This document shows positions 44,359 to 50,820 of a DNA stretch of 64,000 bases, piece after piece (positions within the stretch are counted from its first letter, which is position 1; each line of letters begins with the position of its first letter). Origin of the DNA: Malaciobacter molluscorum LMG 25693 (lineage in GTDB: Bacteria > Campylobacterota > Campylobacteria > Campylobacterales > Arcobacteraceae). Where the stretch lies: contig NZ_CP032098.1 of assembly GCF_003544935.1 (NCBI RefSeq), positions 310,001-374,000 on the forward strand. The letters are read 5' to 3'. The notes under the pieces were generated by a model that did not search any database, was not told where the DNA came from, and saw only the letters and a program-made list of their open reading frames with translations. The translations under genes and the position numbers were made by a program.

Positions 44359-44458
44359 ATTTATTTTCCATTTTTGTATTTTATCATTTTTATTAAAAAA
44401 GAAAGAATGGAATTGTATAAATCAGATACAATTTTTAATATAAAATAAATAAACTATA

Positions 44459-45448
44459 TTAAAATATACTTTTTAAAAGACTTGGTTTATAATAGATATA
44501 TATAAATATTATTATTAATATGATTATCCATGATAAAATATAAATTATCATAGATTTTTTTGCCTTTTCTTTTTTATCCCAAAATGTAGGTCGAATACCT
44601 TTTATAAAAAATACTACTTTACTAGCTAAGTTTATAGAAGTGATATTAATTAAAAGTAAAATAGCTGCACCAATTGCAAGTTCACTATTTCCTGAACCTA
44701 ACATAAGTCCTAGCACTGTAGCAGGAGGTAAAAGTGCAGCTGATACCATTACACCAACTAATATACTAGATAAACCTGCTGTAATTGATAGTGAAGCAGC
44801 AGCACCTGATGCTAAAGCAAGAATAAAGGAATCATAGCTAACTTCTGTTTTTGATACTAATTCATATGTATCAAGATTTTGTCCAAAAAATAGTGCAAAA
44901 ATTAATGGGAGTATTATTGCTATAAAGAACCCAAGTAATACTGCTTTTATTGATGAGTACATTAATTGGGCATCACCAATTGAAACTGCAAAACTAAAGG
45001 CCATATTAGGACCTAATAATGGTGCAATAACCATTGCCCCAATTATAATGGCTAAATTATTATGAATAAGTCCTATTGTTGCCACGATTGTTGAAAAAAC
45101 TAATAAAAGAATAAAGTTTGAATTGATATTACTATTTTTCTTTATTTCATTATATATTGCTTCTTTTGATGCAGTTGCTTTTTCTTCTTTTTTATCTTTT
45201 TCTGAGTTCTTAGGTAAATAAGCTTCAATTGGTAAAATTACTATTTTGGATGTTATTTGGTCTCCCATAATATGACAAAAACTATTTATAGCTTCTTGTA
45301 AATAGTAATCTTTTACAATCATTCGTGATATTTGCATACCATCTTTGTCAACAGGATAAAACCGTAAATCTTCAGCTTTTACATTTTCAGCAATTTTTTT
45401 TATAATTTCACTGCTTGATTCATTTAATACAATTTCAAGATATTTCAT
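44459..45448 (-). CDS. DUF389-family membrane protein
   Basis: The 329 residues have a soluble ferredoxin-like N-terminus (about 1-80), a charged linker (KNSEKDKKEEKATASKEA) and then about six membrane helices. They include FILLLVFSTIVATIGLIHNNLAIIIGAMVIAPLLGPNMAFSFAVSIGD, the DUF389 signature, and GVMVSAALLPPATVLGLMLGSG. No biochemical function is established for the family. It is divergent from the duplicated membrane-protein gene, with 68 bases between the start codons. Confidence 0.85.
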   Translation of the reverse strand: MKYLEIVLNESSSEIIKKIAENVKAEDLRFYPVDKDGMQISRMIVKDYYLQEAINSFCHIMGDQITSKIVILPIEAYLPKNSEKDKKEEKATASKEAIYNEIKKNSNINSNFILLLVFSTIVATIGLIHNNLAIIIGAMVIAPLLGPNMAFSFAVSIGDAQLMYSSIKAVLLGFFIAIILPLIFALFFGQNLDTYELVSKTEVSYDSFILALASGAAASLSITAGLSSILVGVMVSAALLPPATVLGLMLGSGNSELAIGAAILLLINITSINLASKVVFFIKGIRPTFWDKKEKAKKSMIIYILSWIIILIIIFIYIYYKPSLLKSIF

Positions 45449-45492
45449 TTAATCTCTTTTTTTATAATGTATCATATTTAAAATAAATATAT

Positions 45493-45498
45493 TATAAT
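45493..45498 (+). promoter_or_regulatory. Probable -10 box of the first membrane-protein copy
   Basis: TATAAT in ATATTATAATTAAAG lies 19 bases before the TTG start, with an AAAGGA site between. The identical box recurs at 46334-46339 before the second copy, so both can be transcribed. Confidence 0.45.
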
Positions 45499-45516
45499 TA
45501 AAGAAAGGACATTTAT

Positions 45517-46308
45517 TTGAAAAAATTTATAAATTATTTTCTTAAAAATTGGAATAAAATATTATTAGTTATATTTACATTAGTTGCATTATCTTTAGCT
45601 TTTAGTTTAAGTATTGATGAAACTGCAAAAAAATTAATAGATGAATCTTTCAAACAAGCAGTTGTTGTTTTTGGTAGTGCCAAAGCCTTAAATGCTGTAG
45701 TATCATTAGCTCAAGGGACTCAACTTGATTTACCTTTTGTGATAGTATCAATTGGTGAAGTTTTAGACCCAATTAATGATTTGGTTGAACAATTTTCTCT
45801 TGTAATGCTAGCAAGTCTTACTTCTCTTGGCATACAAAAAATATTATTAAACTTTGTTACAACCGATATTTATAATTATATACTTACTTTTTTTATAATT
45901 ATTTTCAATTTTTGGCTATTTAAAAGATTTAAAAAAGATGAAAAAATAAGATATATATTTTTTAAAATTACTGTTGTATTACTTTTTTTAAGATTTGCTA
46001 TTCCTTTTATAAGTTATGTAAACGATATTTCATATAATTATTTCGTAAAATCACAATATAATATAGAAATTTTAAATAAAGATATTGAAAAAATAAAAAA
46101 TGAAGTTAGTAAAGTCAATCAAAGTACAATAAAAGAAAAAAATGATAGTTCCTTTTTTCAAAAAGTTAAAGAAAAATTTGATTCTTCATATTATGAGAAT
46201 AAAATAAATGAATATAAAAATGCAGTTAATAGTTCAAGTGAATATATTGTTGATTTAATAATTGTGTTTATATTTCAAACTATATTTTTACCAATACTTT
46301 TTTTATAA
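45517..46308 (+). CDS. Membrane protein of unknown function, upstream copy (C-terminally truncated by the duplication)
   Basis: The 263 residues are identical to the first 263 of the next gene. I do not recognise a family. Hydrophobic helices lie at about 14-31, 90-110, 118-137 and 147-167. A polar coiled-coil-prone segment follows (about 180-238, rich in K/E/N/S), and then a last hydrophobic helix. Reading passes through the duplication junction and stops at once (CTT TTT TTA TAA), so the final 16 residues, including the basic tail, are missing. The start is TTG, 7 bases after AAAGGA. It may still insert in the membrane; activity is unknown. Confidence 0.75.
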   Translation: MKKFINYFLKNWNKILLVIFTLVALSLAFSLSIDETAKKLIDESFKQAVVVFGSAKALNAVVSLAQGTQLDLPFVIVSIGEVLDPINDLVEQFSLVMLASLTSLGIQKILLNFVTTDIYNYILTFFIIIFNFWLFKRFKKDEKIRYIFFKITVVLLFLRFAIPFISYVNDISYNYFVKSQYNIEILNKDIEKIKNEVSKVNQSTIKEKNDSSFFQKVKEKFDSSYYENKINEYKNAVNSSSEYIVDLIIVFIFQTIFLPILFL

Positions 46309-46357
46309 TGTATCATATTTAAAATAAATATATTATAATTAAAGAAAGGACATTTAT

Positions 46358-47197
46358 TTGAAAAAATTTATAAATTATTTTCTTAAAAATTGGAATAAAA
46401 TATTATTAGTTATATTTACATTAGTTGCATTATCTTTAGCTTTTAGTTTAAGTATTGATGAAACTGCAAAAAAATTAATAGATGAATCTTTCAAACAAGC
46501 AGTTGTTGTTTTTGGTAGTGCCAAAGCCTTAAATGCTGTAGTATCATTAGCTCAAGGGACTCAACTTGATTTACCTTTTGTGATAGTATCAATTGGTGAA
46601 GTTTTAGACCCAATTAATGATTTGGTTGAACAATTTTCTCTTGTAATGCTAGCAAGTCTTACTTCTCTTGGCATACAAAAAATATTATTAAACTTTGTTA
46701 CAACCGATATTTATAATTATATACTTACTTTTTTTATAATTATTTTCAATTTTTGGCTATTTAAAAGATTTAAAAAAGATGAAAAAATAAGATATATATT
46801 TTTTAAAATTACTGTTGTATTACTTTTTTTAAGATTTGCTATTCCTTTTATAAGTTATGTAAACGATATTTCATATAATTATTTCGTAAAATCACAATAT
46901 AATATAGAAATTTTAAATAAAGATATTGAAAAAATAAAAAATGAAGTTAGTAAAGTCAATCAAAGTACAATAAAAGAAAAAAATGATAGTTCCTTTTTTC
47001 AAAAAGTTAAAGAAAAATTTGATTCTTCATATTATGAGAATAAAATAAATGAATATAAAAATGCAGTTAATAGTTCAAGTGAATATATTGTTGATTTAAT
47101 AATTGTGTTTATATTTCAAACTATATTTTTACCAATACTTTTTTTACTTAGTTTATATTGGTTTATAAAATCTATTTTTAGTATGAGAAGGCTGTAA
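46358..47197 (+). CDS. Membrane protein of unknown function, downstream full-length copy
   Basis: This 279-residue copy keeps the native C-terminus, FLLSLYWFIKSIFSMRRL, whose positive tail should anchor the last helix on the cytoplasmic side. The rest is identical to the upstream copy: four N-terminal helices, a soluble coiled-coil-like region at about 180-238, and a C-terminal helix. The start is TTG with AAAGGA at the same spacing. No catalytic motif is visible. The only neighbours are a divergent DUF389 gene and a convergent AraC regulator, so context gives no function. Confidence 0.8.
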   Translation: MKKFINYFLKNWNKILLVIFTLVALSLAFSLSIDETAKKLIDESFKQAVVVFGSAKALNAVVSLAQGTQLDLPFVIVSIGEVLDPINDLVEQFSLVMLASLTSLGIQKILLNFVTTDIYNYILTFFIIIFNFWLFKRFKKDEKIRYIFFKITVVLLFLRFAIPFISYVNDISYNYFVKSQYNIEILNKDIEKIKNEVSKVNQSTIKEKNDSSFFQKVKEKFDSSYYENKINEYKNAVNSSSEYIVDLIIVFIFQTIFLPILFLLSLYWFIKSIFSMRRL

Positions 47198-47208
47198 AGT
47201 AATAATAT

Positions 47209-48162
47209 CTAGAAATAGTATTTCCTTTGTTTTATTAATTCTTTTGGTTTTATTCCAAAATATTTTATAAAAGCATTTGTGAAATTTTGTTGGTATTTAT
47301 ATCCCACAAAATTTGATATTTCATAAATAGAAAACTCACTACTTTTTAATAGCTCTTTTGCATATAACATTTTATATTTTAATATCATACTTCCTGGAGT
47401 TGTATTAAATAATTTTTTAAATCCATATTTTAATTTAAATTCATTTATTGCAACTTTTTTTGAAAGGGTATTTATATCTGGATACTCTTTTGTGTACATA
47501 ATAATATCTTTTGCTTTATTTAATGCAAAAATATCTTCTTGTGATAGTTTTATTTTCTGATTTATATTTTTATTGTGAGAGGTTAAGTCAATACATTCAT
47601 TATAAATTATTTCTAATATTTTACTTTGTATATAAATATTGTGTAAATTACCTTTAAATGGTGAATTAAATAACTCTTTGGCTAGATGTATATTTTTTGA
47701 AGTCTCATTTTTTAATGTTAAAGAGGGGAGTTCTTGTATAGCTTTTGAGTGTGATTCAAAAATATCGGAAAAATTTTTTTCTAAAAAATCATTTTTTATT
47801 AAAAGTCCAATTCCTTGTGAATGATTATTTAAAATAGTTGTCATGTTAAATTCATTTATATATGAAATCTTTATATCATTTTTTTTTAAAGTAATATTTT
47901 CTTTTAATAAATTATCTTTATAATTAACTACTCCATCTAAAAGTATTCCAATATATAAACCATTTACTTTTTGCGTCGATTGTATTTGGATATTTTTTTT
48001 AGAAGTAAATCTTGATTTAAAAAATATAATATCTTTCGATATGACCTTTTTTTGAGATTTAATTGAGCCAATATCTTTTGGAAAATTTATAACATAATCA
48101 TTTTCTGTTGAAACTGAATCAATAAAGTCACTCATATCCTCTTGAGTAAAGTTGTAAGACAT
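47209..48162 (-). CDS. AraC-family transcriptional regulator
   Basis: The 317 residues end in a two-HTH AraC domain: INTLSKKVAINEFKLKYGFKKLFNTTPGSMILKYKMLYAKELL, then IYEISNFVGYKYQQNFTNAFIKYFGIKPKEL. The N-terminal 200 residues lack a clear known ligand-binding signature but fit the layout of PchR-type siderophore-responsive activators. It is divergent from a TonB-dependent receptor with a 118-base shared region, the usual arrangement for a regulator that activates its receptor when the cognate siderophore is present. That assignment is an inference. Confidence 0.88.
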   Translation of the reverse strand: MSYNFTQEDMSDFIDSVSTENDYVINFPKDIGSIKSQKKVISKDIIFFKSRFTSKKNIQIQSTQKVNGLYIGILLDGVVNYKDNLLKENITLKKNDIKISYINEFNMTTILNNHSQGIGLLIKNDFLEKNFSDIFESHSKAIQELPSLTLKNETSKNIHLAKELFNSPFKGNLHNIYIQSKILEIIYNECIDLTSHNKNINQKIKLSQEDIFALNKAKDIIMYTKEYPDINTLSKKVAINEFKLKYGFKKLFNTTPGSMILKYKMLYAKELLKSSEFSIYEISNFVGYKYQQNFTNAFIKYFGIKPKELIKQRKYYF

Positions 48163-48217
48163 TTTATCCCTTAATAATTAAAAATAATACTAAAATAAGA
48201 AAAAAGCACTTGAATTT

Positions 48218-48236
48218 GATAATTAATATCATTATA
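48218..48236 (+). promoter_or_regulatory. Fur box before the TonB-dependent receptor gene
   Basis: This 19-base site matches the consensus GATAATGATAATCATTATC at 15 of 19 positions by my count; GATAAT and ATCATTAT are intact. It lies 45 bases before the receptor ATG in the divergent region with the AraC gene, where Fur-Fe2+ would block RNA polymerase. In AT-rich DNA chance matches occur, but position and neighbours support it. Confidence 0.65.
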
Positions 48237-48280
48237 ATCGAAAGCAATTTAAAATATTATTAATACAAGGAAAGTAAGTA

Positions 48281-50365
48281 ATGAAAAAATTTTATATAAA
48301 AAGACTTTTACTGATTTCATTAGTTGTAAATTCAATTTTACAAGGAGCACAAAAAACAACAAATTTAGGAGATGTTTTTGTTAGTGCAAATAAAATTGAA
48401 GAAAATATTAAAGATATTCCTCAAAGTATCACAGTAATTGATAAAGAAATAATAGATGAAAAAGGAATAAAGAACGTAGCAGATGTAATTAATGAAATTC
48501 CTAATATGTATATATCACCAAGTCATGGAGGTGCATTGAATTTTAGAGGATTGAATACTTCAATGTTCACAAATAATAATCCTGTAGTGATTTATATTGA
48601 TGGAATACCTACAACAGATAGAAATTCATTTGATGTATCTTTACAAAATATTGAAAGAATAGAGATTTTAAGAGGTCCACAAGGTACATTATATGGGAAA
48701 GATGCAATTGGTGGAGTTATTAATGTAATTACAAAAGAACCAAATAATATAACTTCAGGAAGTATTAATTTAGAGTATGGAAGTAATAATTATAAATTAA
48801 CAACTTTTGATATTAGTACACCAATTATAGAAAATAAACTATTTTTTAATTTGAATGGTTCTATAAGTTCAGATGATGGTTGGGTGAAAAATAATTATAA
48901 TAAAGATGATAATGCATCAAAACAGAAAGAAAAAAGATTTAACACTACTTTTTTATATAAAGTAAACGATAAATTATCTACAAAACTTGTATTAAAAAAA
49001 GAAAAAACAAAAAACTATTGGGGAAATGACTTAGGTATTGCAAATGCAACAAGTTTAAATCAATTTAAAAGAGAAGATGCAAAAAATACAAGTTTTGATA
49101 TGCCTTCAATTGAAAAGAATGATATAGATTCACAAAGCTTAAATATTAAATATGAAGAAGATAAATATATATTAAATTTTTTGACAACACATAAGAAAAA
49201 TAGATTTGATAGTATTTTTGATGCAGATTTTACAAGTGAAAATGCTTATGATGGGTCATATATGCAACGTGATATGACAAATGATACATACACTGGCGAA
49301 GTAAGATTAACAAATGGTAAAAATTCAAATTTTAAATGGATAGGTGGCTTATATTTTGATACTGAAGAAAGAAAATATAATCCTTATTTAATGGATTATT
49401 ATTTTAATAATTCTTTGTTTATGTCAGGGAATGCAGTATCAAGTGCAGATAGTTCTACAAAAGCAATATTTGCACAAACTATGATTCCTATAAATGATAA
49501 AGTTGAATTGACTCTTGGTGGTAGATATCAAAAAATAAAAAAAACAATTGATATGACAGTTTTTAATTATGCTATGGGAATTGGTAAATCAAGTTTTGAT
49601 TTTGATTCAGAAAAAACATGGAATACTTTTCTTCCTAAAGTTGCTTTATCTTATAAAATTAATGACAATTTTAGTTCTTATATCTCTTTTTCTAAAGGTT
49701 ATATGCCAGGCGGATTTAATAATTATGCATCTTCTTCAAATGAAAAACAAAATTTATTTGATCCTCAAAAATCGACAAATTATGAACTTGGAATAAAAGC
49801 ACAATTAAAAGATTTCATTTTTTCAGCTTCTATTTTTAGAATGGATATAAAAGATATTCATGTATATAGACAAGTTCTTGGAAATTATTATACTGATAAT
49901 GCACAAAAAGCTTACTCTCAAGGAGTTGAATTTGATTTTACCTATTTTATCAATGATAATATAGAGTTAAGTGGTGCAGTTGGACTTATTGATACAAAAT
50001 ATGAATCATTTGATGCAGGAGATTATGACTTTAGCAATAATAAAATAGAAAATACTCCTTCTCATACTGCTAATATAAGTATTTCATATCATCATCCAAA
50101 GGGTTTTTATGCAAGGGCTGATTTGAAAAATCAAGGTTCATTATATTTCTATGATGATAGACAAAAGAAGTTTTTAAAAAATGATGGATATACTACACTT
50201 GATACTAAACTTGGTTATAAAACATCAAATTGGGATATTTATGCATATGTAAAAAATTTAACAGATACTGAATATATAACTTATTACAATTCAAATTCAA
50301 TGGTATCCCTTGCTTCATTTGGTGATAGTAGAATAATTGGTGTTGGTTTAAAATATAAATTTTAA
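48281..50365 (+). CDS. TonB-dependent outer-membrane receptor (siderophore type)
   Basis: The 694 residues comprise a signal peptide (about 1-23) and a plug domain with DVFVSANKIEENIKDIPQSITVIDKEII (TonB-box region), LNFRGLN and RIEILRGPQGTLYGKDAIGGVINVITK. A 22-strand-type beta barrel follows and ends in a C-terminal phenylalanine (IGVGLKYKF). The plug motifs are those of ferric-siderophore or other iron-complex receptors. Iron regulation is supported by the Fur box, and substrate-specific control by the divergent AraC gene. Energy would come from a TonB-ExbBD system such as the one at 60951-63820. The exact ligand is unknown. Confidence 0.92.
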   Translation: MKKFYIKRLLLISLVVNSILQGAQKTTNLGDVFVSANKIEENIKDIPQSITVIDKEIIDEKGIKNVADVINEIPNMYISPSHGGALNFRGLNTSMFTNNNPVVIYIDGIPTTDRNSFDVSLQNIERIEILRGPQGTLYGKDAIGGVINVITKEPNNITSGSINLEYGSNNYKLTTFDISTPIIENKLFFNLNGSISSDDGWVKNNYNKDDNASKQKEKRFNTTFLYKVNDKLSTKLVLKKEKTKNYWGNDLGIANATSLNQFKREDAKNTSFDMPSIEKNDIDSQSLNIKYEEDKYILNFLTTHKKNRFDSIFDADFTSENAYDGSYMQRDMTNDTYTGEVRLTNGKNSNFKWIGGLYFDTEERKYNPYLMDYYFNNSLFMSGNAVSSADSSTKAIFAQTMIPINDKVELTLGGRYQKIKKTIDMTVFNYAMGIGKSSFDFDSEKTWNTFLPKVALSYKINDNFSSYISFSKGYMPGGFNNYASSSNEKQNLFDPQKSTNYELGIKAQLKDFIFSASIFRMDIKDIHVYRQVLGNYYTDNAQKAYSQGVEFDFTYFINDNIELSGAVGLIDTKYESFDAGDYDFSNNKIENTPSHTANISISYHHPKGFYARADLKNQGSLYFYDDRQKKFLKNDGYTTLDTKLGYKTSNWDIYAYVKNLTDTEYITYYNSNSMVSLASFGDSRIIGVGLKYKF

Positions 50366-50461: not shown

Positions 50462-50487
50462 TTGATGATTGAAAAAAGGACAGCTAT

Positions 50488-50820
50488 TTGAAAAATCTTA
50501 CAAACTATTTTTTAAAAAAGAATATATTATTTAAAGAAATAAGTGAAGTTATACCAAAAGAATTAGGAAGTAGAAAAAAAATACAAATTTATACAGCAAC
50601 TGATATAAAAGCTTCATATTATGCTATTTTTATTGTTGATGCAAAAAGTAGATTTATTAGAAAAAATGCAAATGATTTATTAGAACTTTTTGATAAACTT
50701 ATATCTTATAAAGACCATAATTTTAAACATAAAGAGCTTCTTATTAGTTCACCTTTATGCTCAAAAGCAAAAGAGTTCTTAAAACAAAATGGATGGAGTG
50801 TTAGAGTTGATTTTATGTGA
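50488..50820 (+). CDS. Small hypothetical protein upstream of coaX
   Basis: The 110 residues are soluble and basic, with no family I recognise: IQIYTATDIKASYYAIFIVDAKSRFIRKNANDLLELFDKLISYKDHNFKHKELLISSPLCSKAKEFLKQNGWSVRVDF. The C-terminal part looks like a small alpha/beta domain ending in a GWSV beta strand. The start is TTG at a good distance from AAAGGA. Its last 32 bases overlap the start of coaX, so it is translationally coupled to it. It may be a conserved accessory of this operon. Confidence 0.7.
   Translation: MKNLTNYFLKKNILFKEISEVIPKELGSRKKIQIYTATDIKASYYAIFIVDAKSRFIRKNANDLLELFDKLISYKDHNFKHKELLISSPLCSKAKEFLKQNGWSVRVDFM

Follow-up and report, generated by a model that had tools for sequence, protein, structure and literature searches.

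The closest described counterparts of the duplication reported here arise spontaneously around sigH in Staphylococcus aureus, where short-junction duplications form at repeats of 8 bp (a 1210-bp duplication) and 7 bp (1888 bp) (PMC3486894). These duplications place sigH in frame behind the start of the downstream nusG or rplK gene, and they readily revert (PMC3486894). In E. coli, amplification junctions carry 3–30 bp of microhomology, a pattern that has been explained by template switching (PMC3161906).

A duplication of this class lies in the genome of Malaciobacter molluscorum LMG 25693, within a window (the whole stretch of DNA analysed) of 64,000 nucleotides spanning positions 310,001 to 374,000 of contig NZ_CP032098.1. 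It doubles most of a gene designated here as GENE, and it belongs to the known class of short-junction tandem duplications, with a local history that is itself informative. The likeness to the S. aureus events is close: both are head-to-tail, range across the two systems from ~0.8 to 1.9 kb and have junction repeats of 7–10 bp (PMC3486894). The sigH events, however, are reverting duplications observed in the laboratory, whereas the 841-bp duplication is known from a genome assembly. It has in common with the amplifications of starving E. coli a short junction, between a few and 30 bp in length, formed without long homology (PMC3161906). Those amplicons extend over kilobases to hundreds of kilobases, are often complex and are selected; the M. 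molluscorum duplication, by contrast, is a simple 841 bp with no known selection.

Geometry of the duplication

Positions 45456–46305 and 46297–47146 are identical over 850 bases with a period of 841, and because this is the maximal exact match at an offset of 841, the unit is 841 bp plus a 9-bp overlap, CTTTTTTTA (Table 1). A first-pass annotation had described a perfect 841-bp tandem duplication with a 9-base microhomology, and both the exact match and the occurrence of CTTTTTTTA at three places bear this out. The copies are direct, with the short repeat at each end and once at the junction, where nothing has been inserted; the junction with its flanking letters, CCAATACTTTTTTTATAATG, marks the boundary between copy 1 and copy 2, and the junction 30-mer occurs once, with none expected by chance. 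For two breakpoints drawn at random from sequence that is 74% AT, the probability of sharing at least 9 bases is ~2.5e-4. The pair is the sole long exact repeat in the 64-kb window, and the assembly, a single contig of 2,800,582 bp, holds two full copies of the unit, both at the tandem repeat.

Table 1. Features of the duplicated locus and its surroundings (positions in the window)
Feature	Position	Strand	Basis or comparison
Scar at the ancestral site of GENE: old GENE upstream sequence (TCAGATACAATTTTTAATATAA) abuts the 3' end of DUF389	44359..44478	.	Alignment
Membrane protein gene (DUF389/TIGR00341), oriented divergently from the duplicated unit	44459..45448	-	Family profile match
Sequence upstream of DUF389; up to TATAATTAAAGAA it is homologous to the nearest relative's DUF389-orf110 intergenic region	45449..45505	.	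Alignment
Copy 1 of the 841-bp unit (intergenic DNA and 263 codons of GENE)	45456..46296	+	Exact match, offset 841
Left microhomology CTTTTTTTA, 8 bp upstream of the DUF389 start codon	45456..45464	+	Nearest relative: CTTTTTTAT
GENE start region (ribosome site, TTG, ~9 codons), orf110-like; repeated at 46340-46391	45499..45550	+	Alignment
GENE', truncated, 263 aa, TTG start, TAA stop made by the junction	45517..46308	+	ORF list
Copy 2 of the 841-bp unit	46297..47137	+	Exact match, offset 841
CTTTTTTTA at the copy 1/copy 2 junction	46297..46305	+	
Full-length GENE, TTG start, 279 aa; GEVLDPINDLVE motif, uncharacterised membrane protein	46358..47197	+	
Right microhomology CTTTTTTTA, within codons 261-263 of full GENE	47138..47146	+	Nearest relative: CTATTTTTA
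Genes lying between GENE and orf110: araC-type regulator (-), TonB-dependent receptor (+)	47209..50365	.	
orf110, from which the GENE start region is proposed to derive; own upstream sequence intact	50488..50820	+	

Two other routes to a duplication were considered and do not fit the sequence. A tandem-inversion duplication does not fit, as the junction has no inverted segment or repeats; inverted repeats of at least 40 bp are absent from the window, and the junction is simple and direct. A duplication mediated by an insertion sequence or a long repeat is likewise at odds with ends that share 9 bp only and with the lack of any other long exact repeat in the window; no transposase-like ORF was seen adjoining the 841-bp unit.

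The two gene copies and their product

The first-pass annotation had read the outcome as one truncated gene of 263 aa followed by the full gene of 279 aa, and both ORFs were recovered as such. GENE' and GENE are identical across 263 residues. The last 16 aa are missing from GENE', yet every residue invariant in the family is kept, the last of them being P259; among 31 relatives the invariant positions include N59, S63, Q66, the GEVLDP stretch (80–85), N87, D88, E91 and P259, and I86 is nearly invariant. The product is an uncharacterised integral membrane protein. Searches of Pfam and NCBIfam assigned it to no family, and although the AlphaFold2 model is nearly all-helical (pLDDT 82.7), a fold search with the protein against the PDB returned no match (best E 0.17). 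A DUF815 ATPase gene follows GENE in three genus members. The membrane-protein family with the GEVLDPINDLVE motif also occurs in scattered other Proteobacteria.

The start region lies inside the 841-bp unit, and the promoter is probably inside the unit as well; the downstream copy retains the whole gene. A promoter scan found 38 candidates against 38.1 expected, the AT-rich DNA making such a scan uninformative.

Distribution among relatives

Comparison with related genomes, which the first-pass annotation had proposed as a check, revealed the single-copy state in close relatives that have GENE. By protein identity, Arcobacter sp. CECT 8985 (89%) and Malaciobacter halophilus (74%) come closest among named relatives. 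Of the five other genomes in the genus, four have GENE once and one lacks it. Across the family, the gene is present in 48 of 104 genomes and forms a tandem pair in the window genome only; one other family genome yielded two matches, but these are partial, lie on separate contigs and together make up one gene. As GENE is doubled in tandem only here among the 104 genomes, the duplication is lineage-specific. The perfect 9-bp pair is also a feature of this lineage and is absent from the nearest relative, whose two breakpoint sites read CTTTTTTAT and CTATTTTTA. With a 9-bp junction, a single copy in gene-bearing relatives and neither insertion sequence nor inversion at the ends, the suggestion of a tandem duplication by slippage or short-homology recombination is supported.

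An older rearrangement at the same locus

The surroundings of GENE point to an earlier event, which the first-pass annotation had no means of seeing. The nearest relative has thrE1(-) GENE(+) DUF389(-) orf110(+) in that order, and thrE1 and GENE also adjoin in two other genus members, there without DUF389. The window instead reads thrE1(-) DUF389(-) GENE'(+) GENE(+) araC(-) TonB receptor(+) orf110(+). Between thrE1 and DUF389 lies a deletion scar, in which what used to precede GENE runs straight into the 3' end of DUF389. The araC-TonB receptor pair is not at the corresponding place in the five other genus members, and the two nearest genomes (G004 and G005) hold no TonB receptor with more than ~34% identity to that of the window. 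Homologues of the receptor with 49–51% identity are located elsewhere in three genus members.

The start of GENE is a mosaic: it follows the relative's DUF389-side intergenic sequence up to TATAATTAAAGAA, is orf110-like from AAAGGACA for ~9 codons, and continues as GENE from AATTGG. Aligned without gaps and in register, it matches the orf110 start (50473–50520) at 38 of 48 positions, the best of 1.69 million positions scanned; the next-best position reached 33 of 48, and the orthologous GENE start region of the relative matches at orf110 only 22 of 49. On these alignments the start region in the window appears to be foreign rather than ancestral. GENE thus stands in frame with the start region of its downstream neighbour, as a chimeric gene would, and in this respect resembles sigH joined to the start of a downstream gene. 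The two parents have not both survived around the older duplication, however: orf110 is intact, and the original GENE is lost, with the scar at 44359–44478 in its place. Because the original is gone, the older event is proposed as similar to short-junction duplications rather than filed as a demonstrated member of that class. Unlike the reverting sigH duplications, this fusion is fixed. The step is also old, unlike the 841-bp duplication, as the start region is 21% diverged from that of orf110. The best reading of the alignments is an earlier short-junction duplication followed by loss, through which GENE was relocated and its 5' end swapped before the 841-bp duplication.

A plausible course of events begins with the ancestral layout thrE1 - GENE - DUF389 - orf110. 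The 5' ends of GENE and orf110, which in the nearest relative share TATTTTTT and each encode NYF, may have been the endpoints of a short-junction duplication that created, downstream of DUF389, an orf110'-'GENE fusion. Loss of the original GENE, leaving the scar, would have followed, ~290 bp of intergenic DNA would have been deleted, and the araC-TonB receptor genes would have come to occupy the place of the expected second DUF389. The tandem duplication-random loss model, known mainly from mitochondrial genomes, describes changes of this kind, and the passage from thrE1-GENE-DUF389 to DUF389-GENE could be reached by duplication followed by loss of alternate copies. In contrast to the mitochondrial cases, the proposal here draws on one locus, at which the footprint is a fused start region. 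Such a history, in which the first GENE and the second DUF389 were lost after a tandem duplication, would be the simplest account; it calls for several steps that have left no surviving intermediate, and a transposition-like capture is a possible alternative.

Formation of the tandem repeat and alternative explanations

The reading that we favour, at a probability of roughly 80%, is that a real and recent short-junction tandem duplication formed independently of RecA on a locus that had already been rebuilt. A replicating 3' end may have paired the CTTTTTTTA near GENE codons 261–263 with the CTTTTTTTA just upstream of DUF389, by slipped pairing or by a template switch between sister strands, so that a stretch of 841 bp was replicated a second time. 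Reading of the upstream copy would then end at the junction TAA and yield a protein of 263 aa, and the downstream copy would retain the gene, its start region and its probable promoter. RecA can collapse a tandem duplication to one copy; the usual behaviour of such repeats suggests both that this one formed without RecA and that it is unstable.

The genome holds a second exact two-copy tandem duplication, of a 673-bp unit with the 10-bp microhomology ACTTAAAAAA, at genome positions ~1,312,802–1,314,157 (L075:12802-14157). This unit carries a frameshifted SMI1/KNR4-like gene (the Pfam match is sub-threshold), and none of the other genus genomes contains a full match to it. The pair bears on the question of an assembly artefact, in which contigs or long reads with a true 850-bp overlap would have been placed one after the other, or the overlap from circularisation never trimmed off, so that a single-copy locus looks doubled. 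An artefact would explain the perfect identity of the copies, the duplication is known from one assembly of one strain, and a second perfect pair could betray a systematic habit of the assembly. There is no reason, however, for such joins to hit a 9-bp repeat (~2.5e-4 per junction), and the second pair has its own 10-bp microhomology; a circularisation overlap could account for one place only, and the genome is one contig. Short-read assemblers normally collapse exact 841-bp repeats rather than create them, which also counts against a faulty join. That faulty joins should fall twice on repeats of 9 or 10 bp would be unexpected, which favours a real event and makes an artefact unlikely. Duplication frequency was compared between ~1.25 Mb of this genome, including the window, and 1.2 Mb drawn from four complete relatives. 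Leaving aside short-period repeats and coding repeat arrays, there were two exact tandem duplications here and none in the relatives, from which an excess in the window genome is not established. Among the exact arrays encountered were one of 327 bp in ~17 copies in a relative (L147:1-5700) and one of 344 bp in ~2.5 copies in the window genome (L157:12301-13338), each probably a gene for a repetitive surface protein.

How recent the real duplication would be depends on what has kept its copies alike. They show no differences over an estimated ~220 nearly neutral sites (synonymous and non-coding), which gives an upper 95% bound of ~1.4% divergence; dS between GENE and its counterpart in the nearest relative is 0.45, within a range of 0.16–0.70 for six genes. 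If no gene conversion has occurred, the age of the duplication would be at most roughly 3% of that of the divergence from the closest species sequenced. The first-pass annotation had suggested a very recent event. The absence of differences makes this plausible within that bound, but identity by itself cannot date the event, as RecA-dependent conversion that homogenised the copies would give the same picture. Long identical direct repeats recombine readily, which lends some weight to an older duplication kept identical by conversion, or to an array shifting between one and two copies; the sigH duplications, too, often revert (PMC3486894). Against this, a single species shows the duplication, and its closest relative does not have the microhomology pair; we regard such a history as doubtful, although sequence alone does not distinguish it from a single recent event. 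Selection was also raised, in the form of a gene-dosage amplification, for which the evidence offers nothing. More broadly, the doubled gene might be kept because a larger amount of the membrane protein, or its truncated form, is useful: the unit contains the start region and the probable promoter, the truncated copy retains all invariant residues, and an earlier rearrangement at the locus had replaced the start region of GENE. The genome's other exact tandem duplication, of a frameshifted gene, suggests that such events also occur without obvious benefit, and an adaptive duplication is rather improbable.

Implications

Short-junction duplications have mostly been seen under laboratory selection, and here one is preserved in a genome assembly, its junction still intact. 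Annotators should be aware that the 263-aa gene upstream is a fragment produced by duplication. It is tempting to speculate, with less than even confidence, that the locus records repeated short-junction duplication, an early one having moved and rewired GENE and a fresh one having doubled it, in a genome unusually prone to homopolymer-anchored duplications of 0.7–0.85 kb. GENE seems to have been fused earlier to its neighbour's start by a like process and, if so, duplication and loss would constitute a traceable route by which bacterial genes are moved and rewired.
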